Part shown: one piece after another, positions 1-18,518 of the stretch
How positions within the stretch are numbered: the first letter of the stretch is position 1
How the letters are laid out: the number at the start of each line of letters is the position of its first letter
Origin: Arthrobacter sp. 260
GTDB taxonomy: Bacteria; Actinomycetota; Actinomycetes; Actinomycetales; Micrococcaceae
Direction of reading: 5' to 3'
DNA: 64,000 nucleotides
Assembly (NCBI RefSeq): GCF_013116745.1
Contig: NZ_JABFOE010000006.1
Location: 124,001 to 188,000, forward strand
The notes under the pieces: generated by a model
Seen by the model: the letters and a program-made list of their open reading frames with translations, nothing else
Told to the model about the DNA's origin: nothing
Database searches by the model: none
Made by a program: the position numbers and the translations under genes

Positions 1-726
1 ATGGGTTTTCAGCCATGGGTCCCGCACCTCCCCGGTCACTACCATCCAGTAAGCCGTCAAAGCCTCCCCTCTCCCTATATAAGGCTGGTACGGTACAGTC
101 GCGTCTGTTATCACCACTACTGGGCTTAGCCCAAGCTCCAGCGCGACACCGCAGTAGATTTCTGAGTTTTCACGAGCCTGACCTAGTTGGCTCCCAAAAT
201 TCCCAAATCGCGCTATTCGTGCTTCAAGACCAGCCAATCGCACGCCTGCGGCCACTTTCTTCGCTAGCAGGCTTGCAATTGCGAGGGCAGGGACCGCTTG
301 CGTTCCACTCTGCTGACGTAACCGGAACAATGCAGCATCCGCGGGGGCCCATGTCTCATCAGCGACAACATGTGCGTAATGGGCTTGCTTGAGCGTTCTC
401 TCGAATTCGCGTTTAGATAGGCTGGTCTTGTAATTCGGGACGGTGCCGAGAACGTCGATCCCACCGGCCGGTCGACCAACAACCCCTATTTTCGGCACGT
501 CGAGACCCGCGTCAATAAGGTGTAACGGGCAGAGAAGTGTTGCAAGTGAGCTCGGTCCGCCAGTTGACGCGACGTCCGCACAGTTCGCGCCTTTAGTCCT
601 GCAGTGTCCGGATTTGGCGAGGAGGAATGCCAATTCAGCGATCAGCGACACGTTCGTCCCCTCGCTCAGTATCCTGGTATAGAGGTCAAAAACCGGGGCT
701 GATACCACGGCACTACTTATCGTCAT
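1..726 (-). CDS. Pyrimidine-nucleoside (thymidine) phosphorylase-like protein, 3' part outside window
   Basis: The minus strand is open for 242 codons from an ATG at 726 to the left edge, so the C-terminus is missing. The translation carries an STGG phosphate-loop-like motif, then GRPAGGIDVLGTVP, ALAIASLLAKK and VPYQPYIGRGEAL. I recognise these as family signatures of thymidine/AMP-phosphorylase-like enzymes, which split a (deoxy)nucleoside with phosphate into base and sugar-1-phosphate. The start is short compared with classical DeoA, so much of the usual N-terminal helical domain is absent. Two stops (TGA TGA) sit 9 to 14 bases upstream of the ATG and fix the upstream limit; no strong ribosome site is visible. 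Base composition is clearly lower in G+C than the right half of the window, which fits an island gene. Family assignment is from memory of motifs; whether it is active is unknown. Confidence 0.6.
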   Translation of the reverse strand, partial: MTISSAVVSAPVFDLYTRILSEGTNVSLIAELAFLLAKSGHCRTKGANCADVASTGGPSSLATLLCPLHLIDAGLDVPKIGVVGRPAGGIDVLGTVPNYKTSLSKREFERTLKQAHYAHVVADETWAPADAALFRLRQQSGTQAVPALAIASLLAKKVAAGVRLAGLEARIARFGNFGSQLGQARENSEIYCGVALELGLSPVVVITDATVPYQPYIGRGEALTAYWMVVTGEVRDPWLKTH

Positions 727-1209
727 GAGCTGATCTCATCAGAATATCCAAGAAATAGCCATGCCAACCTGGTCTGCTGAAATCTGACATGCGCATGGAT
801 CGCTCAGCAGGACTAAAATCATTATCCAATCCCATATGACCCGATCTACACCTAATTTGCAGTTAGGAGAGGCTGGGGAGTCGCCCCGCCCTAATCGCTG
901 GGATTTAGTACATGGAAAGTCACAGCGACGTCTCGCCGGTTCCACTTCTGAACAACTTGAGTAGCGCAGGCTCAAGAAGTCAGCCCGTGTGCTCTAGACG
1001 GTCAATAGAAAGAGCACCGAGCGACTGTCATTGCACATCTCGGGAGCAGATAAACCAGCTCACTCGATCTGGAAGGGGATCTATACGCTGCAGGGCATCC
1101 AGTCGATCGCTACATGCGCGAGATTGAACTCCTGCGGCGCGGCGCTACCTTAGAGACCGTGATGGTGATCTGATGGGCGGCCCGGTGGAAGAGTCACTCA
1201 CCCGCAGGC
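727..1209. other. Intergenic, no gene recognised (483 bp)
   Basis: Short open frames exist on both strands, but none has a ribosome site, a family motif or codon use like a gene. It must hold the promoter of the leftward phosphorylase-like gene. No tRNA, repeat or integrase remnant was seen. Confidence 0.5.
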
Positions 1210-1655
1210 CTAGTTGGTGCGGCGCGCTTCGGATTTGCATAGAAACCGACGATCCCGCCAGGCGCCGGCGGACCACAAGGCCCACACCACCAGGACCGGC
1301 TGAAAGAAGAGTCTGGTGAGACGCGATGCGTCAGTATCCAAGCCGAATGCGTCGACGCCGTCGACGTACTGGGCAATGTTGCCCAGGAAGACGGCCACGA
1401 AAAGCGCCGCGACGATCCACCCAATGGGGACCCGCCAGCGTGGGAGGAAAACGAGCGCAGCGCTCAGGACTACTTCGGTGATGCCTTACGTGACAACCAC
1501 AAAAGTCTGTGTCGAGCGGCATCCACGCGGGAACCTGGGCCGCGAACTTGACGCGAGCAAATGACACGTAAGCCGTCGCAGCGAAGAGCAGGAAGACGGC
1601 CAGCACAATGCGAGCGATGGTCCGGGGCGGGGACAGCGTGGGAAGGTCAAGATTT
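1210..1655 (-). pseudogene. Decayed DoxX-family gene (paralogue of the gene at 18005-18454)
   Basis: The DNA aligns along its length with the intact DoxX gene at 18005-18454 on the same strand. Shared protein segments include AAQVPAWMPLDTDF, QYVDGVDAFGLDTD and LTRLFFQP, spread over two reading frames. Near 1497-1507 the copy has an extra T in the codon run after DTDF. In the undisturbed frame the sequence just downstream (near 1482) reads TAA, so it has both a frameshift and a nonsense codon. No full-length product can be made. The homology continues through the intergenic spacer into the next pseudogene, so a segment was duplicated rather than a single gene. Confidence 0.85.
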
Positions 1656-1737
1656 TCTACCACCCGAGGAAGCCTAGAACCGGCGTCTGACGACCGGGGG
1701 CCCCCGGGCGCCGCGATACCCATGCAAGTTACGGGGC

Positions 1738-2016
1738 GCCGGGGAGCGACTCGTAGACGATGAGGCCTTTGCCCTAGTCGATCGGGCAACTTCAAGTAGT
1801 AGGTAAGTATTTCTCGTACCATTTATGCGCTCAGCACACCGGCCATAGCGTCGCGCTCGGCCTATGTAACCCACTGACCGTGGATGGATTTGTCCGAGAT
1901 CTGACGCAAACATAGGGGCGGCAGTAAGGAGGTGTTCGGCGGCAACCAGGCGGCGTAGCCATCACCCTTTTGGCCGTTGATCAGGCCGTCTGCGGCGTAC
2001 GTCCAGATTGAGGACG
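1738..2016 (-). pseudogene. Decayed fragment of the HNH/Excalibur protein gene (paralogue of 18519-20006)
   Basis: Positions 1738-1820 match the Excalibur-domain end of the intact gene at 18519 onward (the DNA for CESLPGAP and its upstream YEKYFPYYGD stretch). From 1822 the match jumps to the HNH domain: INGQKGDG, AAWLPPNTS, RQISDKSIHG and WVT line up with TNGQKGDG, ATWLPPNTS, RQISAKAIHG and WVT. The proline/lysine/threonine-rich linker between the domains is deleted, as are the SLH repeats and signal peptide. It is a remnant and not expressed as a functional protein. Confidence 0.85.
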
Positions 2017-2056
2017 TCGAGTCCCTATCTTGCCGAAAGCGCAAAATCTTGGGAGG

Positions 2057-2500
2057 CTACGCTGGTTCTCCGTGGATGGTGAAGATTTCGATCTTGCGAT
2101 TTCCCTTCACCAGCAGATCTCCCTTAGCCGAAGCCAAGGCCCATCCTTCCGGCCAGCCCTCTCCGTGATAGTGACCGCCACATACGCACTCACACTCCAC
2201 TGGCAGGGACTCCGCGTCTTGGCAGGATTTGGTGCACTTCTCGACTGTGCTGGTCATGATTTGGACTTCACATGCTCCAAACCTGTCAGCCAAATAATTG
2301 ACTACCGTTTCAATGTGCTTGCTGGACAATTCGTATATCTTCACGTTCCAGTCAAAGTCAACGTGACCTCCACCAATTGCTGCCCTGAGGTCCCCCTCTA
2401 AGCCTTCAGTAGGCGGAGTCTGGATGGCGATCTTGGTGTTCTCGGAGTGGAGAGTCTTGAAAACGACTGGAACTGTTGGCCGGGATTTGAATTCAAACAT
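2057..2500 (-). CDS. Hypothetical protein with a Cys/His-rich motif
   Basis: This 147-residue protein is not assigned to a named family. Residues 1-80 look like a mixed alpha/beta domain. Residues 89-113 hold a dense metal-ligand pattern: Cys89, Cys93, Cys103, Cys105, Cys107, His110, His112, ending CxCxCxGxxHG. I have seen this spacing in uncharacterised phage and genomic-island proteins, and it suggests a structural zinc or Fe-S site. The frame is maintained across a lower-G+C region where random frames are short. It lies between the HNH remnant and the BREX operon, on the same strand as BREX, so it may be island cargo. The start (ATG at 2500) has only a weak upstream purine run. Confidence 0.65.
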   Translation of the reverse strand: MFEFKSRPTVPVVFKTLHSENTKIAIQTPPTEGLEGDLRAAIGGGHVDFDWNVKIYELSSKHIETVVNYLADRFGACEVQIMTSTVEKCTKSCQDAESLPVECECVCGGHYHGEGWPEGWALASAKGDLLVKGNRKIEIFTIHGEPA

Positions 2501-2940
2501 CTTGGGTTCCTTAGTTAGGTTGTTCCGATCTTATTCCTTGTCCAATGCAGAGCTTGGATTGATTCGAGCTCACATTCAACTCGTCGACTGCCTGCCTAGC
2601 TACCGGGACGCGGTGCTGCTCCTTCAGTTCCTCGGTCGCATAGCTCATTCTATGTGCGGTACGGACGTGTTCAGGTGGTGTGACTGTGCGGCAGCGCTGA
2701 GCCGAATTCGGCAGCGCTACAGCTGAATCAAAGGAATGTTCCGCTGCCGCCCCGCTTACGGGCTGGACATCGGGTAAAAGAATGACGACCGGTCAGTGAG
2801 AGTTCGGAACAGCAGCAAGGGCACAAGTTTTCAGGCCCTGCCCAGCCTAAGCTGTCAGGTGCGAGAACTTCTCGTTATGGTGTCTTTCCACGTGTTAATG
2901 CACTACCGTGACCATCATCGATTGAACGGGAGGGAAAGTA
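2501..2940. other. Intergenic, no gene recognised (440 bp)
   Basis: This stretch is relatively A+T-rich and separates two divergently oriented small ORFs, so it should contain both promoters. Short frames run through it on both strands without ribosome sites or recognisable motifs. A decayed gene cannot be excluded. Confidence 0.4.
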
Positions 2941-3284
2941 TGGCCGAGGCACAGACTCATAAGCATTGGTGCGCTGACCACAAGAGCGATTACGAGGACT
3001 CCTGCTTCACCCAGGTTGTCCTATATGACAATAACGAGGATGAGGCGACTCAACCGGCAAAAGGATCACTTGCTGCTCAGTTCCAGGCAATGGGTGGTTC
3101 GAAAGACATCGCTTGGGTTCAGTTTGTCGCAAGCCACGACGTTGAGGAAGACGACCAGCCGTTAACGGACCTTCAATTCTTCACGGCTTGGGATTACGAG
3201 GCTCTGGGCAATCTCCACTTAAGCATTGTGGGGTTGAGGGAGCTTCATTCGAACCTCGGTGATGTGCTGAAACGGATCTCCTAA
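2941..3284 (+). CDS. Hypothetical acidic small protein
   Basis: I start this 114-residue protein at the ATG at 2941 because GGGAGGGAAAGT lies directly upstream; the frame is open further up but without a ribosome site. The N-terminus has His/Cys residues (HKHWCADH, then Cys22) similar in feel to small actinobacterial proteins of the DUF6907 type, a weak resemblance only. The rest is acidic with an aromatic core (FFTAWDYEAL) and no signal peptide or membrane helix. It converges on the 3' end of brxL, 113 bp away. As the only rightward gene of the island it is a possible defence accessory or island remnant. No function is claimed. Confidence 0.6.
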
Positions 3285-3397
3285 CTCCCTGCGCCTAACG
3301 AGATCGCAGATTGGATCCTCCGAGACCTGTTGCCGGCGATGATCTTCCCGGAGTCGCTGCCTACTGATCCGAAGGCCTCCCTTGCGTAAACATCGGC

Positions 3398-5542
3398 TCA
3401 TTCATCTCCGCGAATATAGGTCACTCCAAAAGCACGTACTTGCCGGAACTCCTGGCGGCTAGTGCCGAAGTCTAACCAGCCACCGTCGGACTTCTGGAAG
3501 ATGTCGAGGCCGCGGCCGAGGTTGATCCGCCAACCGGTGTCGGTTCGGATCCAGCGGTCATGGCCGCCGGGATCCTTCGCCACATTAACCTTGATGCCTT
3601 GCTGAGCAGCTCCCTGAACGATGTCGTTGAGCATGTGGAGTTGCTTCGTCTGATACTCGGGGTCTTGGTCGAGCACTGTGAAGAGGTTGAAGGCGACCTC
3701 GTCTGCCGGGTCTTTTGCCGCGGCGATGAGTGCGAGTAGCTCGACGAGGTTGCGGCCTTGGTGTCCCATACGAATGTACGGGTCGTGGAGCTCGATCTCC
3801 GTTGCGTCTCGAAGGTAGGGCATGAGCAGCTTCTCGTAGGAGACACCCCGCTGGTTGTCCAAGAAGTCCCGTTGTCCTCGGAACAGTTCCGCCTGAAGGG
3901 AGCCGGCCGCGGGTGCGGGAAGCGATGATAATGGCCCCGCAGAGACTACCTGCACGTCCGACTCGGCTAATGTCCCACCAGCCGGATTAGTCGAGCGGCG
4001 ACGATGGTAGTGCGTCGGGTATTCGTCTTCTTCAAGCGTCGTCACCGCTGACCAGCCACCGCCGAGTGAATCATAGCCGAAGTTCACTTCCGCCATAGTG
4101 GCGTCGATCCGGAGGATCTGGTCCTTGACACGCTTCCGCCCTTCGATTGCGAAGCGCAGCACCTCTTCGACCTCTGCGGTGGTCGCCTGGTCATGCGGGT
4201 AGAGCAGCTTCATCAGCCCAGAGAACGTCTTATGGATGCCGTCGCGATCACGTGTCGAGATGTCGGATCCGAGCGTGAAGTGCTTGTGGTAGCGGTCGGA
4301 GTAGTCGAGATTACGCATCGACCTGAGGACCTCGGCGATGTAGTCGACGACGAACCCGTATCCGGCGGAGAACATCTCGCTGCGGATCGTGTCTACTTCC
4401 CATCCGGGGATATAGAAGTGCAACCGGTCGAGGTAGGCAGGGTCATGGTAGCTATCGGGCAGTTCGTCGAAGAGGTCGGAGTGTTTGAGCATGTAGGGCA
4501 CGGTGTGGGAGGTATTGCCGACGAAGACCATTGATGCCTCGGCGCCAAGCGTCTCCACACCGCGGGAGAACGATTTGTTCGCCATGTAGTTCTTCATGAT
4601 GTCGACCAGCGCCTTATCGGTGCGCTTCTTCTTGCCGGCAAACTCATCGAATGCGACGACGTCCCAGTACCCGACGAGGCCGAGGCGACCGTTTGCGTTA
4701 TTCACGAACAGTTTTGGCACGGTCACCTCTCCACCCGAGATGAGCATGCCGTGCGGCGAGAACTCGGAGTAGATGTGTGACTTTCCGGTGCCCTTGGGGC
4801 CCAGCTCTACGAGGTTGTAGTTTCGCTCCACGAACGGGATCAGACGCACCAACTGCAGCAGTTTGCCCCGGCGCCCGAACTTGTTGGGGTTGAATCCGAT
4901 CGACTGGATCAGCAGGTCGATCCACTCATCGGTCGTGAACTTCGCGCGTGCGTCGAGATACCCGTCGTAGTCGAAGTTCGACATCTGAATCGGTTTGAGA
5001 GAACCAAGAACCCAGGGCGACACACGATTATCTTCGGTGTGAAAGTACTCGACGTCGCACAGGCACCACACGCCTCCTACAAGCAGCTTCTGGTGGGCGT
5101 TCACCGTGGCCGAATCCACGACCACGCTGCTGATCCCAAGGTTCGCGAAGGACGCGTGGTAGACGTCGTCCTTCTCGTTGAGAGTGACGCTGACCTTGTC
5201 GATGACCCGGTAACGCCCGCGCTCTTTGATCTTCGACTTCACCAGCTCGGACTCGTTACGGTGCACGTAGTGCTGAGCGAGGATGTCACGTACCTTGTCG
5301 ATACCCGCCTGGATCGTGGCCTCGTCGTCCGATGCCGCATACTGGCCGAGCAGATACTCCAGCACGTACGAAGGCACGATCGCATTGCCCCTGACCGCTT
5401 TGATCAGGTCTTTCCGGACCACGGCCCCTGCAAAGTGTTCGTTGATCTTGCGATCCAATTCGCTCGTCGCGCCGCCTTCGGAGGCTTCGGTGTCAATGGT
5501 GTCCTCGCGCGCCACCTGGGTCAGGTCGATGTTCTCGCTCAA
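3398..5542 (-). CDS. brxL: BREX system protein BrxL (AAA+ ATPase) with a MITD1-type C-terminal domain
   Basis: This 714-residue protein is the last gene of the BREX operon. Residues 25-490 are the conserved BrxL core: Walker A GPKGTGKS (248-255), Walker B VVAFDEFAG (295-303), sensor-like VGNTSH (341-346) and an arginine-containing DRLHFYIPGWE (372-382). BrxL is an AAA+ protein resembling MCM-type DNA motors and is needed for phage exclusion in type I systems. After a Pro/Ala-rich linker (about 520-550), residues 565-712 match what I recall of the MITD1 C-terminal PLD-fold domain: ELHDPYIR (585-591), HDRWIR (661-666), GW and GRGLD (676-680). I see no Lon-type Ser-Lys protease motif. The start is TTG at 5542, with AAGGAG seven bases upstream and a 9-bp gap after pglZ. 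Confidence 0.9.
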   Translation of the reverse strand: MSENIDLTQVAREDTIDTEASEGGATSELDRKINEHFAGAVVRKDLIKAVRGNAIVPSYVLEYLLGQYAASDDEATIQAGIDKVRDILAQHYVHRNESELVKSKIKERGRYRVIDKVSVTLNEKDDVYHASFANLGISSVVVDSATVNAHQKLLVGGVWCLCDVEYFHTEDNRVSPWVLGSLKPIQMSNFDYDGYLDARAKFTTDEWIDLLIQSIGFNPNKFGRRGKLLQLVRLIPFVERNYNLVELGPKGTGKSHIYSEFSPHGMLISGGEVTVPKLFVNNANGRLGLVGYWDVVAFDEFAGKKKRTDKALVDIMKNYMANKSFSRGVETLGAEASMVFVGNTSHTVPYMLKHSDLFDELPDSYHDPAYLDRLHFYIPGWEVDTIRSEMFSAGYGFVVDYIAEVLRSMRNLDYSDRYHKHFTLGSDISTRDRDGIHKTFSGLMKLLYPHDQATTAEVEEVLRFAIEGRKRVKDQILRIDATMAEVNFGYDSLGGGWSAVTTLEEDEYPTHYHRRRSTNPAGGTLAESDVQVVSAGPLSSLPAPAAGSLQAELFRGQRDFLDNQRGVSYEKLLMPYLRDATEIELHDPYIRMGHQGRNLVELLALIAAAKDPADEVAFNLFTVLDQDPEYQTKQLHMLNDIVQGAAQQGIKVNVAKDPGGHDRWIRTDTGWRINLGRGLDIFQKSDGGWLDFGTSRQEFRQVRAFGVTYIRGDE

Positions 5543-5551
5543 GAGTGCTCC

Positions 5552-8050
5552 TTAAAAGTCGAAGTCGGTGGTGAATGAGCGCTTGAGCGTGTAGGGTGCG
5601 CTCTTGTACTTCTTCCACTCGCCGGTGTCGCCGATCGGTTCGGAGAGCCGGAACTCTACGCCCTGGTTATTAGCCTCATCAGCATCCTTGCTCAGCAGCA
5701 GGCGGACGCTCTGGAACCGATCACGCCCTTCGGCGCTCCCGGCATCGAAGAGCAGCTCAGGTTCGTTGGAGATCAACTGATTACCGAAGTAGATACCTGC
5801 ACGCAGCTTCCTCGCCGTGCGCTGATCGGTGACAGCGCTTTGCTGATAGAGCTTGACCACGATCTGACCGGTCGTGATCTTGTCGGACTCCGGGTGGATG
5901 TCGACATTCACAGACTCGACGGTGTCGGAACGTCCCTTGTTGATCAAGATGACCGGCACCACGATCTCCTGCAGCGACGCACCCCCGTGGACGAACTGGA
6001 ACCCGGCACCCGGCTTGACGATCCGGCAGATCGAGTTTGGGATCTGAACTTCCAGATGGCTCGATAGTCCTAGCTGCTCGGGCAGGAACCGGCGGAATGC
6101 ATCGTCTTCCTTCAACCCGCGGCCGAGAACATATCGACGATTCTCGACTACGACCTTATCGCCCTGCGGCTTCACGGTCAGATTGAATTGGGGCGCGAGC
6201 TTCGACTCCTGGTACAAGAAGCCGTGGTCCGCAGTGACGAGGATATTCGTCGCGTTCGCACTCGCCAGCTTCTTAACGACGTCGACGAGTTCATCGATCG
6301 CATCAGCCGCAGCCTTGAACGTGCGGTGCTCCGACACCGCCTTGTCACCGGTCGCGTCGATGGTGTCGTGATAGACGTACAGCACCTGATGCGCCGCGTA
6401 AAGATCACGCCGCTCCGCAGGCTTCATCTTCAAGAAATCTGTGACCTGGATTGCGGTGCCACCGACGGACGCGAGGATCTTCGAGCGGTTCGCGGTGCCA
6501 TTGGAAAGCTGGCCGTCGACGAGCACCGGGTCGCCGTTCTCGGAGTGCGCGAGTGTCTTGTGTGGGAGCAGCGCCGCCATCCCTAGCTGAGTGTAACTGG
6601 GCAATACGCCAAGAATGGCCTCGATCTTAGCGTCGTACTTGTTCTCTCTGCGGATCTTGGAAGTCAGCTCATCGGCAACCTCGTAGCGCAACGCGTCAGA
6701 GATGACGACGACGGCCTTCTTGCGTCCACCTCGCACCTGTGGGGCGATGTAGTGGTCGTAGAAAGAACTCTGCGAAGTAATCGCGAGCGTCTTCCACGTC
6801 TCGACTTGGTCGACCTGCTGTTGCCAGCTGATCCCGAGCCTAGAGAGGAAATCTGTGACATAGGCATTCTCCACTTGCTCGTTCAGCGCTTCCAACGGTT
6901 GTGTGAACTCCGCGGTCTGCGACGCGAGAGTGTACTGCCGGTAGAGCTGGTCGATGCGGAAGAGATCATCGCGATAGCGGCTGAATCCATCTTCGAAACT
7001 CAACACATCGATCCGGGCAGAACGGATAGCCGGGATCAGCTCGGCCGCCGCCCCAAGCGCCACGTATAGCGTGGCGTAGTCGTCGAACCAGACACTGTCC
7101 CGGCGACGGGTGCGGATCGTGTCTGCGATGTCGCGCACCGAGATCGTTTGGGAGGCAATGCCGTCGATCAGACGCCGGATGATCTCCTTCTCGCCAGCAT
7201 CGAAGATGTCTGTGGCCATGAGTACAGCAAGCGACGCGTCCGTAGCCTGCTCGACGTAGTCCAAGTCAGTTTCGGCCTGACGCGCGAGCTTCTTCAGCGC
7301 GGCCAGGCTCTGGCGGTCGTTGCGGAAGCTACGGAAGTCGATCTCAATATTGCGCGCCGCTTTCGAGGTCGTGGCTCCGAACCCGCCCCGGGCTTGCTGG
7401 AACATCCACAACACGAACCCGGCCACGCTCGGCGTCTGGGAGTCATAGCCATAGATCTTCGCAGCGCCGGACCAATGGAAGTCTACGAGCTTCTGCGTGG
7501 CGAGGGCCTCATAGCCGGCACTGTCACCTTCGGCATGCTGCACCAGGAGCGTCCGAGTCAGTTCAGAGAAGCTGTGCTCCTTCTGTCCGAGCACGACCGC
7601 ACACATCTTCGCCTGGACCTTGGCGAGATCATCGTCGGCGCGCAACAACGCTGAAAGCTTCGAAACCAGCTTCGCGTCGCCAAAGAATGTCTCACGCCCT
7701 GCAATCAGCTCATCGGATCCGGGCGCGTTGAGGCCGAGGTCTGCCCGCACGAGCGCGCCGCGATCTGCGGTGAAGACACCGTAGGCGAGTTCGAGATCGA
7801 GCAGCCAGTTGCCCGCCCCCTCAGCAACACGACCGCTGCGATAGATCAGAAACTTTCTGCTCGGCTCGTCGCGCAGCACGCGGTGCTTGACCCCGAACTC
7901 GTCGTTCTGGACACGTAGCACCGCTACGCCGGTCGGCGCGTGAGCGTCGACGTCGGTGGCGTAACTGCTGTCGGGATCGTGCCACACCACCAGGCGGTCC
8001 TGCTCGAAGCGTGCCACGAGGTGCTCTGAGATCGAAGATGCCGCGCTCAC
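5552..8050 (-). CDS. pglZ: BREX system alkaline-phosphatase-superfamily protein PglZ
   Basis: This 832-residue protein is the signature component of BREX. It belongs to the alkaline phosphatase superfamily; its role in exclusion is not settled, but it is required together with PglX. The metal-binding phosphatase core is visible as VVISDALRYE (nucleophile region, 448-457) and VTADHG (605-610). The N-terminal 400 residues are the helical and beta region usual for BREX PglZ. The length is normal for type I systems. It starts with GTG at 8050, overlapping the pglX stop by four bases (GTGA), so translation is coupled. brxL follows after 9 bp. Confidence 0.95.
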   Translation of the reverse strand: MSAASSISEHLVARFEQDRLVVWHDPDSSYATDVDAHAPTGVAVLRVQNDEFGVKHRVLRDEPSRKFLIYRSGRVAEGAGNWLLDLELAYGVFTADRGALVRADLGLNAPGSDELIAGRETFFGDAKLVSKLSALLRADDDLAKVQAKMCAVVLGQKEHSFSELTRTLLVQHAEGDSAGYEALATQKLVDFHWSGAAKIYGYDSQTPSVAGFVLWMFQQARGGFGATTSKAARNIEIDFRSFRNDRQSLAALKKLARQAETDLDYVEQATDASLAVLMATDIFDAGEKEIIRRLIDGIASQTISVRDIADTIRTRRRDSVWFDDYATLYVALGAAAELIPAIRSARIDVLSFEDGFSRYRDDLFRIDQLYRQYTLASQTAEFTQPLEALNEQVENAYVTDFLSRLGISWQQQVDQVETWKTLAITSQSSFYDHYIAPQVRGGRKKAVVVISDALRYEVADELTSKIRRENKYDAKIEAILGVLPSYTQLGMAALLPHKTLAHSENGDPVLVDGQLSNGTANRSKILASVGGTAIQVTDFLKMKPAERRDLYAAHQVLYVYHDTIDATGDKAVSEHRTFKAAADAIDELVDVVKKLASANATNILVTADHGFLYQESKLAPQFNLTVKPQGDKVVVENRRYVLGRGLKEDDAFRRFLPEQLGLSSHLEVQIPNSICRIVKPGAGFQFVHGGASLQEIVVPVILINKGRSDTVESVNVDIHPESDKITTGQIVVKLYQQSAVTDQRTARKLRAGIYFGNQLISNEPELLFDAGSAEGRDRFQSVRLLLSKDADEANNQGVEFRLSEPIGDTGEWKKYKSAPYTLKRSFTTDFDF

Positions 8051-11000
8051 CCCGCCGCCTCCAGCCCGACAATCTTCTTGAGCGCCGGGTAGAACTTGGG
8101 GTAGTTCGCCTTCACACCGTCGTTGAGGTCGATCGTGAGTTGCTGGGTTGCCAACGGGTAGAGCACGTCGTGTTCGTAGTCACGAACCTCAGCGATCACC
8201 TTGCGCAGCCGGTCGGCTTCCTTCTGGTGCTTTGTGGAGCCCGCGGCACCAGCGTGCTCGGCGTTGGTGAGCGCGACCTCCAATTTGGCTCGGTAATCGC
8301 GTAGGTACTCGTTGAGCACCGTCGGGACCGTCGACGGATTGTAACGGTGCATGTAGATCAGCGCGTTGAACGAGCCCTTCGGGCTGGAGAACATCCAGTA
8401 GATCGGTCGCTTCTTGTACCGCTGCACATGGTCGTCGTAAAACTTCGACTTGCCCGTCTTCGTGATGAAGTAGTCCCGCAATTTCGGCACGCCGAGCGAC
8501 TGCTCAATGAAGCTCAGGTTCTCCTCAAAGCGCTCCTCCCCGAACGCAATGCGCAGGAACTGACGGAACCGCTCGACAATGTCGTCCTCGAACCAGCCGT
8601 CGTCGACAAACGGGATCACGTTATCGGCATCCGGCGTGAAAGTGACATCACTGGTCGCGCCTGCTGAGACCACCTTTGCGAGGTAGTCCTGGAGCGTCGA
8701 CCCCTGCTCCGCGAGGATCAGGCCCGGCTTATCCAGGCTATAACGGCCGAATATGCATCCGACGGCGTACGAAACGAAGTCTGCCGCGATGTCCTTGGAC
8801 TGCAATGCAGCATACTCATGCTTAGACCGGCCTGCCCCGTATCGAAACTCAACATTCCGATTTAGGGAAACGCGATGGAGAGCAGATCCTGTACCTACTT
8901 CACCCTTTAATCCATACGCCTGAGCAATGTACTCATTGTTCGCGATCTCCCGTGCCAACTGCTCATCAGAAACAACCGCCATGGCGTCACAGTATGACGT
9001 CATGACGTCGGAGTATGACGCCGAAACGCTGTCAATACGGGGGCGCCATACATTAGCCGAGGAAGCCAAAAGCGCGTTGGTCTCGAAGTCCCACGAAACT
9101 TCCCCCGAGTCCCAATCAAGTCGCGCCGCAGCCTCCAACTCCGTCACGTTTGAGGCTATGTCGCCCGCCAACGAGTCTGGAACGTCAGGGAATGGGGTCC
9201 GCGCGACCTCACCCACGTTGAGGGACAATGTTGGGTTGATCGCTGCATGAATCTCGCGAACGGTTGTTGAATTCAATAGTCCCAGAACGACAGGGAGCTT
9301 ACTCTTATCATCGGCGAAGCCCGCCGAGCCACGGCCATCGAATAGTTGCCCTCGATCCATAACGCGAAACGCGTTCTCAGAGGAGGTAATGTCCGTCCAC
9401 GTCAGCCCAGGCTTGAAGATATAGTCCAGATTATAGTTATGCGACCGGACTCGCCCCGTCGCCTCTTCCGCAAAGTTACGCACCTCGTAGCCATCGCGTT
9501 CCCAATTCACTACAAATTCAAGGTTTCCGTACCATTTTCTAAATGATCCTCCCTTTTGGTATGGAAACCAACGCGCCCTAGTGGCCTCCGCAGCACGCCT
9601 GTCGATGCATCCGTGGGCGATTCGACCGCTAGACACCTCCCACCAGTAACGCAGGAACTGGTCGTTGTTCGCGGTTGAAAGACCCAACCGTGTTGTGAAG
9701 ATGCGTTGAAGTGGCTCGTACCTAAAGGCTGCACGCATGGCGTCGGAGAGCCAGTAGGCGATCGGCGACCCTGGTGCCTTTGCGAAGTCTTCAGACGACG
9801 CTGTGAATCGCCACTCGCAATCGGGATCGTTGATCGCCTTGATAAGACGAAGTCGCTTCTCTTCCTCATTCAGCGTCGTCAGGCGGACGAAAGGTGCCCG
9901 CCGTCCCGGCGAGTTAGTCATCGAAAGGACGAATGCTGCGTTTGCTCCGAAGATGTCGGGGTGGTTGGAGACGTCGTGCAGGTGAACAAAACTGTCAAAA
10001 GAGTGTCCAGTGAGAATGTCTGATCGCAGGTCCTTGAAACTTCCAATCGACATCCATGTATCGCCAATAATTTTCGCAACGAATCCGCCATGGAGGACAA
10101 AGTCCATTGCACGCAGGACGAAACATGCGTAGAGGTCTTGCTTTCCATGGGGATATGCGCCCTTAACAAAGTCAGCGAGACGGCCATCCATATTCTTGCT
10201 GCCCATGTATGGCGGGTTAGCGGCGGCCACGGAGTACTTACGGCTCAGGGCTTTGGCCTGTGCGACAGTTTTCCGAGCAAGTTCAAGAGTCCGCGCGTGG
10301 ATAATGTCGTTGCCACCATTGATTGCTGACAGCACGTCCTCCGCACGCTTAGTCTGCGTAGCATCCGACTGAATGAGCGCCCCCAGCGTGTCAGCATCGC
10401 GGAACTGGTTCCAGAACGCCTCCTCCGCGAATCGGTCCCCATCCTTGGTGACGAGGAAATCGAGCTCGGCCGGTCCGAACGAGATCGGCTCTATTACATA
10501 GATCTTCGGCTCAGCGTTCTTGTTGAAGAATCGGCGGTCCTTCGCACGTGCCTTCATGGCGAGGGCGAAGGCGGCGAGTGAGCCTGCACGCGGATCGATC
10601 TCGGTGCCGTGGAGGTTATGGGTGAGGATCAGGCTCGGGATCTCCGACGGGGCGTAGCCCACTTCTTCATAGATCGCATAGAGCAGGTCGAAGGCGTAAG
10701 TGAGAATGTGGCCCGAGCCGCAGGCCGGGTCGATCACGGTTAACTCCTCAGGGCCGCTGATCTCCAGGAACTCAGTTTCCTCGTCGACCGGCGCTATGTA
10801 GTAGTCCATCTGGTCAACGAGGCGTGACGCCGGCCGGTTGAGCATCCACAGGTGTCCAAGAGAGTTCTCAACGAGGTAGCGGACAATCCAGTGCGGGGTG
10901 AAGAGCTGGGTGGCGGCGGGGATCTCGTCTGGCCCCGCCTTTTTGTTCTTCTTGAATGCGGCGAACACCTCGTCTTTCCGCTCAGAGATGTAGAACTGGT

Positions 11001-11610
11001 AGAGCCAACCGATCACCTCCACGTCATCACAGACTTCCTCTGTCAACACCTCGCGTGTCAGGGACAGGATCGTGCCGTCCGCTAGTAACCCTGCGGGTAC
11101 GAGCAACTCAGTGTAGTCGGCCTCCTGCTCAAACATGAACGGCATCGATCGGTGCCAGTAGCGGCAGTATTCGGTCAACAGCAGCGCATAGGCCTCGCCT
11201 TCGGCATCGGTGCTCCGGCGTGTGCCATCGAGTAATGCGATGATCGCGTCTGCCGTCCTCTTGTTAATCAGGACGTCGATATTCAGGTTGCCTCGTTTGG
11301 CGTCGGTGAGGATCTCCGGCTGGCCATGCGCCTGGCCTTGTGCGGGCGAGACGACACCCGCGTCGGTGTAGCTGCGGGCGTCCATGAAACGCAACGCCAC
11401 AATTCGGTTAAACCAGGTGTAGGCGACCTTGTCGATCACACGCCTACGACCATGTGCCGTGATCTCAGCTTCGAGCTTCTTCACCGCCTCGGCGCGCTCG
11501 CTGCGGGCGACGGATCCGGTCGCGAGAACAGTGGTGGCCTGCGCGTCGACGGCGGCGACAAGATCGCGGCGCGCCTGCATGGCAAAGCGCTCCAGAGGTC
11601 TAGTATTCAT
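8047..11610 (-). CDS. pglX: BREX-1 system adenine-specific DNA methyltransferase PglX
   Basis: This 1187-residue protein is a gamma-class N6-adenine methyltransferase that marks host DNA at a non-palindromic site so that the rest of BREX can tell self from phage. The SAM-binding motif DPACGSG is at 294-300 and the catalytic NPPY at 465-468. The N-terminal 240 residues are helical and the C-terminal half holds target recognition and BREX-specific regions. The length matches type I PglX. Part of the central region (about 8.8-10.2 kb) is lower in G+C than its ends, as expected for a recognition region exchanged between strains. The start lies 12 bp after the brxC stop with only a weak ribosome site, and its stop overlaps pglZ. 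The frame is intact with no phase-variation tract. Confidence 0.95.
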   Translation of the reverse strand: MNTRPLERFAMQARRDLVAAVDAQATTVLATGSVARSERAEAVKKLEAEITAHGRRRVIDKVAYTWFNRIVALRFMDARSYTDAGVVSPAQGQAHGQPEILTDAKRGNLNIDVLINKRTADAIIALLDGTRRSTDAEGEAYALLLTEYCRYWHRSMPFMFEQEADYTELLVPAGLLADGTILSLTREVLTEEVCDDVEVIGWLYQFYISERKDEVFAAFKKNKKAGPDEIPAATQLFTPHWIVRYLVENSLGHLWMLNRPASRLVDQMDYYIAPVDEETEFLEISGPEELTVIDPACGSGHILTYAFDLLYAIYEEVGYAPSEIPSLILTHNLHGTEIDPRAGSLAAFALAMKARAKDRRFFNKNAEPKIYVIEPISFGPAELDFLVTKDGDRFAEEAFWNQFRDADTLGALIQSDATQTKRAEDVLSAINGGNDIIHARTLELARKTVAQAKALSRKYSVAAANPPYMGSKNMDGRLADFVKGAYPHGKQDLYACFVLRAMDFVLHGGFVAKIIGDTWMSIGSFKDLRSDILTGHSFDSFVHLHDVSNHPDIFGANAAFVLSMTNSPGRRAPFVRLTTLNEEEKRLRLIKAINDPDCEWRFTASSEDFAKAPGSPIAYWLSDAMRAAFRYEPLQRIFTTRLGLSTANNDQFLRYWWEVSSGRIAHGCIDRRAAEATRARWFPYQKGGSFRKWYGNLEFVVNWERDGYEVRNFAEEATGRVRSHNYNLDYIFKPGLTWTDITSSENAFRVMDRGQLFDGRGSAGFADDKSKLPVVLGLLNSTTVREIHAAINPTLSLNVGEVARTPFPDVPDSLAGDIASNVTELEAAARLDWDSGEVSWDFETNALLASSANVWRPRIDSVSASYSDVMTSYCDAMAVVSDEQLAREIANNEYIAQAYGLKGEVGTGSALHRVSLNRNVEFRYGAGRSKHEYAALQSKDIAADFVSYAVGCIFGRYSLDKPGLILAEQGSTLQDYLAKVVSAGATSDVTFTPDADNVIPFVDDGWFEDDIVERFRQFLRIAFGEERFEENLSFIEQSLGVPKLRDYFITKTGKSKFYDDHVQRYKKRPIYWMFSSPKGSFNALIYMHRYNPSTVPTVLNEYLRDYRAKLEVALTNAEHAGAAGSTKHQKEADRLRKVIAEVRDYEHDVLYPLATQQLTIDLNDGVKANYPKFYPALKKIVGLEAAG

Positions 11611-11622
11611 GTCTTTGTCGTC

Positions 11623-14600
11623 CTAGAGCGTGATGCGCTTGTTGTCGTGGATTGTCGCGAACAGCGTCGTGCGGAGCTGGTCAAGATAGCTATCGATGTC
11701 GGCTTCGGTTTCGAGCACGTGACCGGCGCCGGGCAGCGGCAGCTTGTTGATCGAAACTGTCTGCTTGATTGCGGCAGGCGCTGGCTTCGGTTCAGCGTTA
11801 TCGGCGGTGTCGGGCGCCTCCATCTCGGGCACCGGAGCAACTCGTGCTGCGTCAAGCTCATCGAGAATCTGTGGGTAAATCGAGTTTGCGAAATGCGAAG
11901 CGAAGTTCTTAATCGCAGGAATCTGTGTTTCGTGCAGTACCCGGTCAAGCACTTCGTAAGCGGTACGTGTCACGGACTGTTGCGTCGCCTCGGTTGCAGC
12001 ACTGTATGCCTGGCTGGCGGGCACCTGATCCCAGCGTGCCTTGATGTCCACCTTGGCGGCAGTGCGGTGCGCCTCGATCACGTCGTCCAGCTGGTCCTGC
12101 AAGGCCTTGGTTTCAGCGCCGAGTTGGGTGATTTTACTGCCCCGGAAGATCTGCGGGTCATCAAGGGCGAAGGCGACCTTGTCCGTGGCTTCCGCGGGAA
12201 GGTAGGCGATGTTGGACTGATTCGCTTGTATGAACGTCACGGCGGTGTCATAGATGCCCCTCTGGGCACCGTGCAGGAACGCCTTGATCGGGTCAATCAC
12301 GCTGTCTTTCGCGTCGAGCAGGTCGTCGGCATCGGCAAAGTCGGTGACGAACCACTCGGCCTTGTTGCTGCACAGTTCGTCGAGTATCCGGATCGGCTCG
12401 TCGATCTGATTGATAAACGGGTACCGGGAGCCGGTGCGCAGAGCTTTTAGTTCAGCGAGTTTCGCGTCGAGATGCTCCTTGCCAGCGCGTGCAAGCTCCA
12501 GCGGGTCCTTGGGGATCGCGCCGTCGTCAGTGAACTCGATGACGAACTTCCGGAACGCACCCACCACCTTCGTGTCGAACACTCGCTGAAGGGCGATGAC
12601 CATGTTCGGGTAGCTCTGCGTGTTGCGCAACGCGGTGGTGATCTCGGTGCGCGCGAGCACCTTGCCGTTGAGCTGGATCTCGACCTTCGACTGACTTGCG
12701 AGGTAACCGACCACGGCAGCGATCGACCACTGGCCCCAGCCATACGGTTTGGTCGTGTACCTCTCGATGAGGTGCTTCATCGTCACCTGCACGTGGCGCT
12801 TACCGCTCATCTCCAGGTGAGCGAGGACATCATCCCCGGGCACTGCCAAGATGCTGGCGGTCTCGTCGAACAGGCCACCCTCAAGCGGGTTCACGAACGT
12901 GGACAGCTGCTGCTCGGTGAAGCTCTTGCTTCCCAACAGGGTGAGATTCGCGTAAGTCGCCGCGATGACCTTCTGGAAACCATCATTGATCCGAGTCACC
13001 GCGTCGGCCGAGGCGAGATCAAGGATGCCTGCGTTGTGAATCAGGGTCGAGCGGCCGACCGCGGTGCGGAGGCGTTCGACGATCTCCTTCTCCCGCTCGG
13101 CGTTCTGGGTGCCCTTAGTTTGCAGGATCGTCTGCTCGATTGGGGTACGGCTGGCGCCCTGGGCGCGCTTGACGTACTTCTCGGTCTTCAGCAGGAGACG
13201 CAGGTCGGCGAGGATCCGGTCAGTCTCGGGCGGGAGCACGACGCGAAGTTCATCGAGACCGGCACTATGGGCCTTAATCTGCTCCGTGCTGAATTCGGTC
13301 TCGGGGCTGGTGAAGTGCAGGGCGAGCTCGTGCTGCTTGCTCATCGCCTGCCCGTCGAGTTTGAACCCGACCGGGAAATTCTGGCCGTTCTTGCCGTAGA
13401 CGACCTTGGTCGCTTTGATGACCGAGCCGGTGAGCAGGTCGGAGAGCTTCTTGGAGACCTCGGAATTGTCGATGTCGACGTTCTTGATCTCCTGCTCGAT
13501 TTTCTGCTCTTCGTTGGTGAGGTAGTCGTAGATGTCGCCGTTGCGCTGGATATAGGTCTGCGCTTCCAGCGCGGCAAGGGCCTCGTTGACGTCCTTGCCG
13601 AGCTGCGTAAGGTCGGTACCGAAATTGTCGTAAACCAGTACGGTGAGGTTGCGCGGCGTCGCCTTGAAGGCATCCACGTACTTGACCAGGAAGAGGGCCT
13701 TGAGGAGGCGAATGGCAAGCGGCGGCAGCGACGGACTGCGTTCCGCGTCGTTGATTGCGCGCTGGTTCGCTGACTTCAGCGAGGCACGGATGCCTTCAAA
13801 CATCTGGTCGAATGAGGCGAGCTGGCCGAGCGGCTTGTCGGCCAACGCGCGGGCAACTTCCTGCACGACACCGAGCATGGAACGCTCACCGACCGAGCTG
13901 TTGCGCCCCTCGAATATGTAGTGGTCGCTGATGCCCTCGATGGCGGACTGGAACAGCGGGAACTGATAACTCACGAACGGGTACGTGCCAGCGAAATGGG
14001 ATTTATCACGGTAGTTCGGATAGTGGCGGCCCTCGACGAAGTCGAAGAGGGTCTTGAAGTTCGCGTGCTCAGTCGCGTAGATCGCCGCCAGATCGGTTTT
14101 GGCAGCATCTGTCTTGTCCAGCAGGCGCTTACGGATGACCTCTTCAACGTCCTGGCTGGTGAGCTTGATCCGGTTTGTGAAACGGGCCTGAATTTTGGAA
14201 AAGTCGTTCGCCTGCGACTTCGTGCGATCACCGCCGACCTTCTCCATGTCTTCCTGAGAGGTGACAAAGATCCATGCCCTCCCCTTGCACTTGGTGGCCA
14301 GGGATTCGGCGATGGTCTGGAGATTCAGCATGAGCTGGGTGTTTGTCCCGATGAACTGGCCGACCTCGTCGACGAAAAAGTTCAGGCGGAAGCCGCCGAC
14401 TTGCTGGTCCAACCAGACTGCGACCTCGTCGGCGAAGTCCTCGATCGAGACCGAATAGCTGGTGCTGTATTGACGGATGATGCCGGAACTCTCGGTGCCG
14501 TTGACCTCGGCGAAGGCCTGATCGATGTGCCCGGCTTCGAGTGCAGCCTGCTCTCGTCCCTGCGTCCACGCGATACCGGCGATGCGTTCGAATGCGGCCT

Positions 14601-15138
14601 TGAAATCATTGTACTGCCCGCGGCTGTCGAGGTCGCGTTCGAAGCGGGCAATGTGGCCCTGGTTGCCGTAGTATCCGCGGGATTCGTCGAAGATCTTCAC
14701 GAACACTTTGAGGAGGGCGTCATTCTGATCTTTCGAGATCAGCGTGGCCTTTTGGTCGATGTTGAACAGCAGGCTCTTCGCGGCGATGCGTTCAGCCTTT
14801 TCGATCAGCGCAGGCAGGAACGCGTCGTCGGCCTTGGCACGGAAGTACTCCGAAACCTTGGCACGCGGATAGTCATGGCCGTCGATGTCGCCCAGCAAGT
14901 GGGCGAGCATCTTCAACAGATGTGACTTACCGGACCCGAAAAAGCCCGAGATCCAGACCCCGTTGGCGTTCGTGTAGTTCGTGTAGGCCTCCAACACATG
15001 TTCGAGGCCCTGGGCAGCCTCGTTCGTGAGGACGTACTCCTCGACCTCGGTGGCGAGATGGGAGGTGTCATCGGCTTTGATGACGCCCTCGATGGCCCGG
15101 CTGATCGGCTTGGCGAAGATTTCATTGATTGTGGTCAT
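11623..15138 (-). CDS. brxC: BREX system P-loop ATPase BrxC
   Basis: This 1171-residue cytoplasmic ATPase is the large nucleotide-hydrolysing component of BREX (PglY-like). Walker A is GFFGSGKSH at 65-73 and Walker B is LNFFVDEVG at 252-260. The remainder is long, mostly helical and conserved only among BrxC proteins. A Pro/Ala-rich stretch (around EPKPAPAAIKQ) near the C-terminus is probably a linker. It starts with ATG at 15138, two bases after the brxB stop, with AGGAAG in the brxB end as ribosome site, so it is coupled to brxB. pglX follows after 12 bp. Confidence 0.95.
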   Translation of the reverse strand: MTTINEIFAKPISRAIEGVIKADDTSHLATEVEEYVLTNEAAQGLEHVLEAYTNYTNANGVWISGFFGSGKSHLLKMLAHLLGDIDGHDYPRAKVSEYFRAKADDAFLPALIEKAERIAAKSLLFNIDQKATLISKDQNDALLKVFVKIFDESRGYYGNQGHIARFERDLDSRGQYNDFKAAFERIAGIAWTQGREQAALEAGHIDQAFAEVNGTESSGIIRQYSTSYSVSIEDFADEVAVWLDQQVGGFRLNFFVDEVGQFIGTNTQLMLNLQTIAESLATKCKGRAWIFVTSQEDMEKVGGDRTKSQANDFSKIQARFTNRIKLTSQDVEEVIRKRLLDKTDAAKTDLAAIYATEHANFKTLFDFVEGRHYPNYRDKSHFAGTYPFVSYQFPLFQSAIEGISDHYIFEGRNSSVGERSMLGVVQEVARALADKPLGQLASFDQMFEGIRASLKSANQRAINDAERSPSLPPLAIRLLKALFLVKYVDAFKATPRNLTVLVYDNFGTDLTQLGKDVNEALAALEAQTYIQRNGDIYDYLTNEEQKIEQEIKNVDIDNSEVSKKLSDLLTGSVIKATKVVYGKNGQNFPVGFKLDGQAMSKQHELALHFTSPETEFSTEQIKAHSAGLDELRVVLPPETDRILADLRLLLKTEKYVKRAQGASRTPIEQTILQTKGTQNAEREKEIVERLRTAVGRSTLIHNAGILDLASADAVTRINDGFQKVIAATYANLTLLGSKSFTEQQLSTFVNPLEGGLFDETASILAVPGDDVLAHLEMSGKRHVQVTMKHLIERYTTKPYGWGQWSIAAVVGYLASQSKVEIQLNGKVLARTEITTALRNTQSYPNMVIALQRVFDTKVVGAFRKFVIEFTDDGAIPKDPLELARAGKEHLDAKLAELKALRTGSRYPFINQIDEPIRILDELCSNKAEWFVTDFADADDLLDAKDSVIDPIKAFLHGAQRGIYDTAVTFIQANQSNIAYLPAEATDKVAFALDDPQIFRGSKITQLGAETKALQDQLDDVIEAHRTAAKVDIKARWDQVPASQAYSAATEATQQSVTRTAYEVLDRVLHETQIPAIKNFASHFANSIYPQILDELDAARVAPVPEMEAPDTADNAEPKPAPAAIKQTVSINKLPLPGAGHVLETEADIDSYLDQLRTTLFATIHDNKRITL

Positions 15139-15140
15139 GC

Positions 15141-15749
15141 TTATGCTTCCTGTTCCAGAATGTCCTTGGCCCGGTAGTAGCTATCACTGGCGCTGAGGTT
15201 CAGCGCGCGCAACTGGTGACCACTGGTGTGAGTGAACTCGTACGTCCCCGGGAACCACGCGAGCATCGGACGGCCCGTCACGACGCTTTGCAGGTTCTCC
15301 AACACCGTGTGGGTGCGGATAAAGGGGAACACCTCGCCGATTCCATTGAGGAAGACCATGTCGCTCGGCTCAGCGTCGAGACGGGCGCGGATCGCGGGTG
15401 CGAGGTGATCATGCGGGTCCAGCATGCCCTGCAATGTCTCCCGGAAATCGGCCTTGTCCATGCCCGGTTCCAAGGCCAAGACGCGATCCCACACCCCACG
15501 TTTCCTGAGTAGCTCGACGGCAAGGTCGTAGAGGTTAACCTCCATGACGTTCAATCCGTCATCGCTACGAAGTTTCGTGATGATGCGGTCGCGGAGGCCG
15601 TCGACCTCAGGCGCCCATGCGGGCGGGTAGTGATAGATGAAGAACGGCACCTCCTTGGATAGGCCCTCCATCTTCAAGAACCGCGCACTGCGCAGCACCT
15701 CGTAGACGTGCTTCTCATCGCTTGTGAGGCTTCGCTTGCTCGTACTCAT
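15141..15749 (-). CDS. brxB: BREX protein BrxB (DUF1788)
   Basis: This 202-residue protein of the DUF1788 family lies between brxA and brxC as in all type I BREX operons. Characteristic pieces include PFFIYHYPPAW, ELLRKRGVWDRVL and FLNGIGEVFPFIRTHTVLENL. BrxB is required for BREX methylation and exclusion in studied systems, but its biochemical role is unknown; it appears cytoplasmic. I use the ATG at 15749, whose ATGA overlap with the brxA stop gives translational coupling. The frame is open about 40 codons further up, but that part lies inside brxA and reads as an out-of-frame shadow. Confidence 0.92.
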   Translation of the reverse strand: MSTSKRSLTSDEKHVYEVLRSARFLKMEGLSKEVPFFIYHYPPAWAPEVDGLRDRIITKLRSDDGLNVMEVNLYDLAVELLRKRGVWDRVLALEPGMDKADFRETLQGMLDPHDHLAPAIRARLDAEPSDMVFLNGIGEVFPFIRTHTVLENLQSVVTGRPMLAWFPGTYEFTHTSGHQLRALNLSASDSYYRAKDILEQEA

Positions 15750-16369
15750 CGCATCGACTCCAGAGGCAGAGTGGTGGGGAAAAATCGGATGTCGCTCGGG
15801 CCGCGTGTAGCAAGGGCTTCGTGGACCCGCGCTGAGAGCACCGCCGGAACGATGGCGCCTTCTTCGGTGCGGAAGCACGCTTCATGCAGCATCCGAAAGA
15901 CACACTGCCGGAGCTTGGCCCGCGTTGAGGGCTTCAACTCGTCAAGCTCGGGGTGCCACAAGCTCTTACCCGCCATGAACCGCTCAAAGTCCTCGGTGCC
16001 GAGCGTCGGGGTCATCAGGAGGAACCGCTCGCGGACGACCTCTTCCGCGAAGTCACCAATCAGTTCGTAACGACGGCATGCGGCGGCCCACATCAAGTGA
16101 CAGCGCTCGGTGAGACTCGACTCTGCCAGGAGTTCAAGTTCCGAATCGTCGAAGACGCCCAGCCGCTGGATCGTCTCCCGAGTCACGCGAACACTCGACG
16201 AAGTCGTACGCGCCTGGAGCAGGTTCTGCTCAGTGACTGCACGACGTACCGTCACCCAGTCGCGCGAGCGTAGATACTCGCCGACGATCACGTCTGCCTC
16301 GCGCACTAGGAGTCCCCCGCTGGTGAACGATAGTGCATAGCGATCGTGTGAGTAGATGCTTGTGGGCAC
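15746..16369 (-). CDS. brxA: BREX protein BrxA (DUF1819)
   Basis: This 207-residue DUF1819 protein is the first gene of the BREX operon. BrxA is a small helical protein that binds DNA and is needed for full BREX function in studied systems. The N-terminal YALSFTSGGLLVREADVI segment and the helical body are typical. The start is GTG at 16369, with a near-perfect AAAGGAGG five bases upstream, the best ribosome site of the island, as fits the leading cistron. An 87-bp gap with an inverted repeat separates it from the small HTH gene upstream on the same strand. Confidence 0.92.
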   Translation of the reverse strand: MPTSIYSHDRYALSFTSGGLLVREADVIVGEYLRSRDWVTVRRAVTEQNLLQARTTSSSVRVTRETIQRLGVFDDSELELLAESSLTERCHLMWAAACRRYELIGDFAEEVVRERFLLMTPTLGTEDFERFMAGKSLWHPELDELKPSTRAKLRQCVFRMLHEACFRTEEGAIVPAVLSARVHEALATRGPSDIRFFPTTLPLESMR

Positions 16370-16397
16370 GTGGCCTCCTTTCGGGAATTAGGCAGTA

Positions 16398-16419
16398 GGT
16401 CAGAATATATGGGCTGACC
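16398..16419. promoter_or_regulatory. Inverted repeat, candidate operator of the BREX operon
   Basis: GGTCAG and CTGACC form a 6-bp inverted repeat separated by an A+T-rich 10-bp spacer. It lies between the small HTH gene and brxA, about 30 bp before the brxA start, where a promoter is expected. It is a candidate site for the adjacent HTH protein; no transcription start is known. Confidence 0.4.
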
Positions 16420-16456
16420 AACATCAACGTGGGGCGAGTTCGAATGGGACAGCCAA

Positions 16457-16651
16457 TCAGTCGTGGCCTAGTCGCGATGCTTCGGCGCCACCATCGCGGA
16501 CCCAATCGTCGATCTCGCTGGCTTGGAATTTCCATAGGCGCCCGATCTTATGCGCGGGCATGCCTTTGTCGGCGATCCAGGAATAGACAGTGTCCTTAGT
16601 GATGCCGAGGTGCACAGCGATGTCGTCAGCAGAGAGCCAAGGCTCGGGCAT
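16457..16651 (-). CDS. Small helix-turn-helix (excisionase/MerR-like) DNA-binding protein
   Basis: This 64-residue protein is essentially one winged HTH of the excisionase (HTH_17) type: LSADDIAVHLGITKDTVYSW, followed by the wing MPAHKIGRLWKF and the usual SEIDDWV tail. Such single-domain proteins act as recombination directionality factors or local repressors, and they often precede restriction and BREX-like loci. The ATG at 16651 is chosen because GAGAGGA sits seven bases upstream and the domain begins right after it. The frame is open 33 codons further up without similarity. It lies 87 bp upstream of brxA on the same strand and probably regulates it. No integrase is present nearby, which argues against a true excisionase role. 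Confidence 0.8.
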   Translation of the reverse strand: MPEPWLSADDIAVHLGITKDTVYSWIADKGMPAHKIGRLWKFQASEIDDWVRDGGAEASRLGHD

Positions 16652-17025
16652 GTCGGTCCTCTCAGTACTTTGCGGCGTCGGCGGCCGCCCCCTGATACTA
16701 CCTGAGAGCCCTCTTTTGACCCGGTTTGTCCGGGCCTGTTCGGGTAACACCTTTCTTCAAGGGAGGGGTAAGGCTTAGATCGGTCTCTTTCGGATCGAGA
16801 TCAGAAGGTGCGCCACGTCCCATACGCTTAGCTTCGGACTCGGGGGCATAGCCGCTCCTGTCGATATCGCGGAAGACCTGTGGATCGCACTGGGGTGGGG
16901 TGTTCGGACCGGACGGCGGCGATAGCTGCGCCGGTACTGGATGGACCGCCACGGAGATCTGGTGGGCGACCAGATCGAGGGTCTCCCGACCCGGCAGTCT
17001 CTTGACGCGGTAGGCCTGGGCCTCC
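16652..17025. other. Intergenic, no convincing gene (374 bp)
   Basis: The minus strand holds an open frame of more than 84 codons rich in Pro, Lys and Arg, but without a ribosome site or family motif. It may be a decayed gene at the right boundary of the BREX island. The promoter of the small HTH gene should be at its left end. Confidence 0.4.
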
Positions 17026-17556: not shown

Positions 17557-17599
17557 GGCCAACTCCTCCAAGTCAGTGCTAGATTAGCAGTCACTACTC

Positions 17600-17616
17600 A
17601 CTTCTATTTTAGAAGT
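17600..17616. promoter_or_regulatory. Perfect 7-bp inverted repeat, likely HxlR operator
   Basis: ACTTCTA-TTT-TAGAAGT is a perfect palindrome in the 93-bp divergent region between the HxlR gene and the NTF2-like gene. It is flanked by further half-site-like AGTnACT stretches. Position and symmetry fit autoregulation plus control of the rightward gene. Confidence 0.65.
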
Positions 17617-17649
17617 TACTTACAATAATCACCCACACGAAGGATTCTC

Positions 17650-18454: not shown

Positions 18455-18518
18455 GTGGGGAAGCCTAACAGCGGCGCCTGAAGACCGAGGCCCCTAGGCG
18501 CCGCGCTACCGATGCCAG

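Follow-up and report, generated by a model that had tools for sequence, protein, structure and literature searches.

The question of how BREX stops phage replication forms the background to this analysis of the C-terminal end of BrxL. The BrxL of Acinetobacter forms rings on DNA, and its inactive Lon-like end pairs two such rings (PMC10164562). A different end has been described by Rakesh and Krishnan 2026 (PMC12839542), who report that an "HKD-endoDNase" replaces Lon in 1030 of 2913 Type 1 BrxL taxa and credit Li et al. 2025 (gkaf357) for the HKD-ended BrxL. They note a change from Lys to Arg in the HKD motif and argue that activity is likely kept; the word MITD1 is absent from the main text of that paper. 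An earlier study, cited in PMC12715929, names PF16565 as part of BREX. Human MITD1 binds ESCRT-III (PMC9477494).

In the literature that we searched, where most subscription papers fall outside, no experimental test of a BrxL with an MIT_C (PF16565) end was seen. BrxL and HKD were mentioned together in PMC12839542 alone, and the sole co-mention of BREX and MITD1 was a cancer-vesicle review in which each word occurs once. Our search of the Protein Data Bank found BrxL chains of the Lon type only, none of the MIT_C form.

The BREX operon and its brxL gene

The window, that is, the whole stretch of 64,000 nucleotides of Arthrobacter sp. 260 that was analysed, contains a complete Type 1 BREX operon on the minus strand. 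It comprises brxA (15746..16369; PF08849, E 2.6e-47), brxB (15141..15752; PF08747, E 7.1e-33; start assigned in the present analysis), brxC (11623..15138; NF033441, 1101 bits against a cut-off of 400), the BREX-1 adenine methyltransferase gene pglX (8047..11610; NF033452, 1238 bits, cut-off 500), pglZ of BREX-1 type A (5552..8050; TIGR02687, 655 bits, cut-off 270) and, as the last gene, brxL (3398..5542). The nearest plasmid operon, in Rhodococcus qingshengii, is 76% identical in DNA sequence across half of window positions 1-20000 (megablast). BrxL of the R. qingshengii plasmid NZ_CP096564 shares 79% protein identity with the window BrxL, and the gene order is also the same on NZ_CP096566, another plasmid of that strain.

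Imperfect direct repeats flank the BREX island at window positions 1246-1990 and 18048-18980 (79-82% identical, in two pieces), and the GC content of the island is about 0.57-0.60 as against about 0.62-0.69 elsewhere in the window, suggesting that the island was probably acquired. An open reading frame at 18005-18454 recurs, shortened and altered, on the left-hand side of the island.

The brxL gene encodes 714 amino acids from a TTG start at 5542, with GGAG directly upstream, and accounts for both the single PF13337 (BrxL ATPase) match and the single MIT_C match in this genome. Its AAA+ core is standard, as a sequence-only reading of this DNA had stated: BrxL_N (PF20442; residues 35-166, 5045..5440, minus strand; 161 bits, E 1.6e-47) and the AAA+ domain BrxL_ATPase (PF13337; residues 178-483, 4094..5011, minus strand; 428 bits, E 1.7e-128) both exceeded their curated cut-offs in a profile search, as did the BrxL core model TIGR02688 (629 bits, cut-off 329). 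With 603 bits, a further BrxL model of 675 positions, TIGR02653, fell short of its cut-off (628 bits) and covers residues 27-490 only. The Pro/Ala-rich linker that had been proposed between the core and the end domain is real, and was assigned from the sequence to residues 484-565 (3848..4093, minus strand). It is variable, with a median length of 68 amino acids and a range of 39-93 across 148 BrxL-MIT_C frames, duplicates included.

Identity of the C-terminal domain and its conserved site

The C-terminal domain of the window BrxL is a member of the MIT_C/MITD1 family, far beyond chance. PF16565 matches residues 566-711 (3410..3847, minus strand) over its full length (profile positions 1-142 of 142; E 1.5e-35; score 122.6 bits, cut-off 25), within one residue of the extent of 565-712 first read from the letters. 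Single-sequence phmmer searching of the Protein Data Bank matched human MITD1 (4a5z and 2ymb) at about residues 560-687, with E 2e-16 and 6e-16, and a profile of 50 bacterial copies reached MITD1 at E 9e-41; the chain ranked after it, unrelated by name, had E 0.034. The MITD1 identity proposed from the letters is thereby confirmed, and its motifs lie as they had been placed: HDPYIR at 586-591, HDRWIR at 661-666, GW at 670-671 and GRGLD at 676-680. The C-terminal domain of human MITD1 (2ymb, 4a5z) is of the same Pfam-level family by profile. MITD1 differs from the window BrxL in having an N-terminal MIT domain, of which the whole window protein gave no match at E up to 1, and in carrying Asn where most BrxL have Asp.

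The idea that the protein ends in a Lon protease domain too diverged for the profiles to detect is scarcely credible: the BrxL family name is all that favours it, whereas the MIT_C match is full-length and Lon_C, which matches many other BrxL in the same profile library, gave no match in the whole window protein at E up to 1. The solved BrxL of Acinetobacter sp. 394 (8emc, 8emh), which has a similar core and an inactive Lon-like end, aligns to residues 25-490 of the window BrxL (E 1.7e-145), and 8emc has no significant match beyond residue 490. A Lon-type end is ruled out by this limit together with the MIT_C and MITD1 matches; the claim that an obvious Lon domain is missing also stands, with no profile placing residues 555-714 in Lon.

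A PLD fold is suggested for the window domain by its profile similarity to one PLDc_2 protein. The profile alignment with PLDc_2/HKD phosphodiesterases is collinear, with matching His and Asp columns, and hhalign (E 1e-6, probability 91%) paired H661 with the H, R663 with the K and D668 with the D of the PLDc_2 protein. By this alignment and by conservation, the HxRxxxxD motif of the window BrxL (residues 661-668; 3539..3562, minus strand) lies at the position of the PLD motif HxKxxxxD. The domain departs from the HKD phosphodiesterases in having HxR for the HxK of their HxKxxxxD, with Arg not Lys, and in its extra conserved DPYIR, Q..N and RGLD signatures; as far as residues can tell, its site differs from the canonical HKD one.

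In a set of 111 different BrxL-fused copies, a count in which the conservation of residues 671-680 is inflated by a search pattern over those residues, 110 retain H661 and all 111 retain R663; the place of the motif Asp, position 668, is taken by D in 98 copies and by N in 13. The genome-contig scan used a single pattern over residues 671-680 and retained the best 80 of 537 confirmed loci; the set was reduced from 144 to 116 copies by removing four incomplete domains and those copies whose inner sequence duplicated that of another, and 111 of the remaining copies were BrxL-fused. In a repeat count of 33 copies found with the Pfam model and without a sequence pattern, H661 was kept in 32 and R663 in 33, with D in 27 and N in 6 at position 668. 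This set derives from 38 rows of a genome search, 12 rows having been dropped beforehand, minus five (L130-L134) from genomes reached via pattern-found loci. All 19 residues invariant among 12 bacterial copies are the same in human MITD1 (12-row alignment), and all 11 invariant residues of a 47-row alignment are kept there; at the position equivalent to 668, human MITD1 has N. Judged by these alignments, a polar site is retained over very long times, with Arg for Lys and with the Asp not fixed, and it is conserved to the same degree in human MITD1.

The HKD-ended BrxL of PMC12839542 resembles the window BrxL in belonging to Type 1 BREX, in the replacement of the Lon end and in having H-R-D for H-K-D. 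From the motif and the frequency we infer that the HKD domain described there corresponds to PF16565, in which case roughly one in three Type 1 BrxL proteins would carry it (the 1030 of 2913 taxa above). The two accounts differ in that the published domain is called a nuclease, with no reference to MITD1 in the main text, and the MITD1 kinship is found here. The Lon-less form of BrxL therefore appears to be already known and common, and the novelty that the sequence-only reading had implied does not hold, given the same H-R-D replacement in those taxa and the listing of PF16565 in BREX (PMC12715929).

Carriers of MIT_C and possible roles of the domain

Across five phylum samples (396, 349, 247, 121 and 123 genomes, chosen centres included), 40 of the 45 MIT_C matches over the cut-off sit on a BrxL core. 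A 310-amino-acid MIT_C protein (L181) is encoded one gene downstream of a brxL-MIT_C gene and adjoins an EVE-AAA gene, with pglZ in the same stretch, and a Sel1-repeat MIT_C protein (L180) is encoded beside Eco57I methylase and Mrr genes. A third carrier (L182) has a weak MIT_C match and a restriction endonuclease gene in the same stretch; two others (L160, L211) are poor matches that are not on BrxL. Five of eight newly scanned borderline matches were ABC transporters and were taken as chance, and another candidate (L007) was an ordinary PLDc_2 protein; borderline matches L144, L145 and L162 were left unscanned.

On plasmids, the window domain matched 25 records, which include brxL and other carriers. 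One of these, from Thiodictyon (L126:7610-10453, plus strand), joins an N-terminal dynamin GTPase to a C-terminal MIT_C; only one of 14 plasmid matches to it covers most of the protein, which makes it a single record. A Paenarthrobacter plasmid (L127:9446-10495, plus strand) encodes an IF2_N and MIT_C protein with no BREX gene annotated within 10 kb. No tblastn match to the window domain was obtained in 50,697 phage records at E up to 0.01, and no relative of the dynamin's MIT_C was found in viral contigs.

With moderate confidence, we read the end domain as a tethered, phosphate-binding PLD-fold effector that acts on DNA by cutting or clamping. By analogy with Lon-type BrxL, the AAA+ ring of the MIT_C-type protein would assemble on phage DNA, with the flexible linker tethering the MITD1-family PLD-fold domain to the BrxL_N/AAA+ core and the retained site presumably binding phosphate, Arg taking the place of the catalytic Lys. 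Single-motif PLD domains are known to pair. The ring may bring the tethered domains together, allowing them to pair and then to engage the DNA backbone. That they would nick the backbone, thereby helping to block replication, is a tentative proposal; that they would help to do so by clamping the backbone without chemistry is a slightly fainter one. The Arg substitution and the Asp/Asn variation mean that nuclease activity should not be taken for granted, and an almost unvarying His argues against a role as scaffold alone.

The DNA-effector reading gains from the position of the L181 and L180 proteins near BREX or restriction genes. Counting against it, MITD1, the nearest solved relative, is known for membrane binding, and Asn replaces Asp in 13 of the 111 copies as well as in human MITD1. 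BREX would also have no need of a second nuclease, as PglZ already is one (PMC12205998), and the same Lys to Arg change was used in the catalytically inactive mutants K898R of PLD1 and K758R of PLD2 (PMC3648575). This last point applies equally to the published active-nuclease reading, which rests on the change being harmless.

Rather unlikely, in our estimate, is a purely structural protein-protein module that pairs BrxL rings or binds another subunit of BREX and acts on neither DNA nor lipid. Such pairing is what the inactive Lon-type end does in Acinetobacter BrxL (PMC10164562), and the change from K to R suggests that catalysis was lost; however, the retention of His, Arg, Asp, Gln and Asn in both bacteria and human resembles a ligand site more than an interface, and the long, variable linker would be better suited to tethering than to joining rings rigidly.

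Docking of BrxL to the membrane, which the sequence-only reading had put forward by analogy with MITD1, is improbable: the MITD1 identity and the absence of Lon in that interpretation have stood, but docking found no support of its own. MITD1 reportedly (Hadders, 2012) has a PLD fold and binds membranes, and it is this close kinship that argues for docking, together with the one bacterial MIT_C that ends a dynamin-family GTPase (L126). Dynamin-family GTPases work on membranes. That fusion is nevertheless a single plasmid record, 40 of the 45 MIT_C matches are on BrxL, the studied form of which is a DNA-binding ring, and two other carriers (L180, L182) lie in stretches with restriction genes. 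Net charge was rejected as a sign of membrane binding: the window domain is acidic (K+R 18, D+E 23) and MITD1 is likewise acidic (K+R 18, D+E 24, printed row), so that charge does not decide the matter.

A broader reading, which we regard as similarly doubtful, takes MIT_C for an ancient module of bacterial defence that has a phosphoryl-binding site of its own (HxR with DPYIR, Q..N and RGLD) and is not an HKD nuclease. Its carriers would be BrxL, a DUF4007-type BREX relative, the dynamin and the Sel1-repeat protein; MITD1 would descend from it with the site intact, and BREX and ESCRT would share the same kind of ligand.

Ends of BrxL in other genomes

In the phylum sample of 396 genomes that includes the window's own, 24 BrxL matches were found in 23 genomes. 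Five end in MIT_C (window included), ten in Lon_C or ChlI-like domains (three of them, L028, L030 and L044, below Pfam cut-offs), four in Schlafen AlbA_2 and one in a protein kinase, with four left unclassified (L024, L026 and L034 unscanned, L043 a short match). A second sample, from a different phylum and comprising 349 genomes around an Acinetobacter genome chosen because the MIT_C domain is present, gave 13 BrxL matches over the cut-off, five with MIT_C (centre included) and eight Lon-like. The window BrxL had been presented as departing from the usual form; it does so, but the form that it has is common. BrxL matches also occur in 322 plasmid records, 21 of which cover at least 80% of the query; among the 60 matches listed, none of those on Acinetobacter, Escherichia and Salmonella plasmids extends beyond residue 490-493.

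In its section on BrxL, PMC12839542 lists just three states of the C-terminus: a Lon end, an HKD end and the lack of any extension. A BrxL at L040:1012-3480 (plus strand) has a protein kinase in the C-terminal slot, neither Lon nor MIT_C, and those at L041, L036, L022 and L038 (the last partial) have Schlafen AlbA_2 there. The varied domains in this position fit an effector slot. A quick tree of 42 rows, 14 of them with MIT_C, requires two state changes, and one row (L146) lay apart from the other MIT_C rows; a tree that groups the 14 as a single clade was not rejected (p-AU 0.355), and repeated gain of MIT_C by BrxL is therefore not claimed.

Two BREX-like loci, L185:7970-18001 (minus strand) with L200:3989-7780 (minus strand), and L201:2-13066 (plus strand), hold an Eco57I/MmeI-type methylase, DUF4007, a large AAA-like protein and a weak PglZ. 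The L185 and L201 stretches encode a diverged BrxL carrying MIT_C and are not standard Type 1. PMC12839542 describes HKD-fused BrxL as specific to Type 1, DUF4007 as typical of Type 4 BREX, and Type 4 BrxL as having no C-terminal extension. A Hymenobacter plasmid (L125:7177-10432, plus strand) carries an apparently decayed BREX, with brxL in several pieces and a full MIT_C match in the last frame. Finally, twelve viral-classed contigs of IMG/VR (L008-L019) encode BrxL that matches the window BrxL up to residue 711, the proteins of L008 and L018 being identical.
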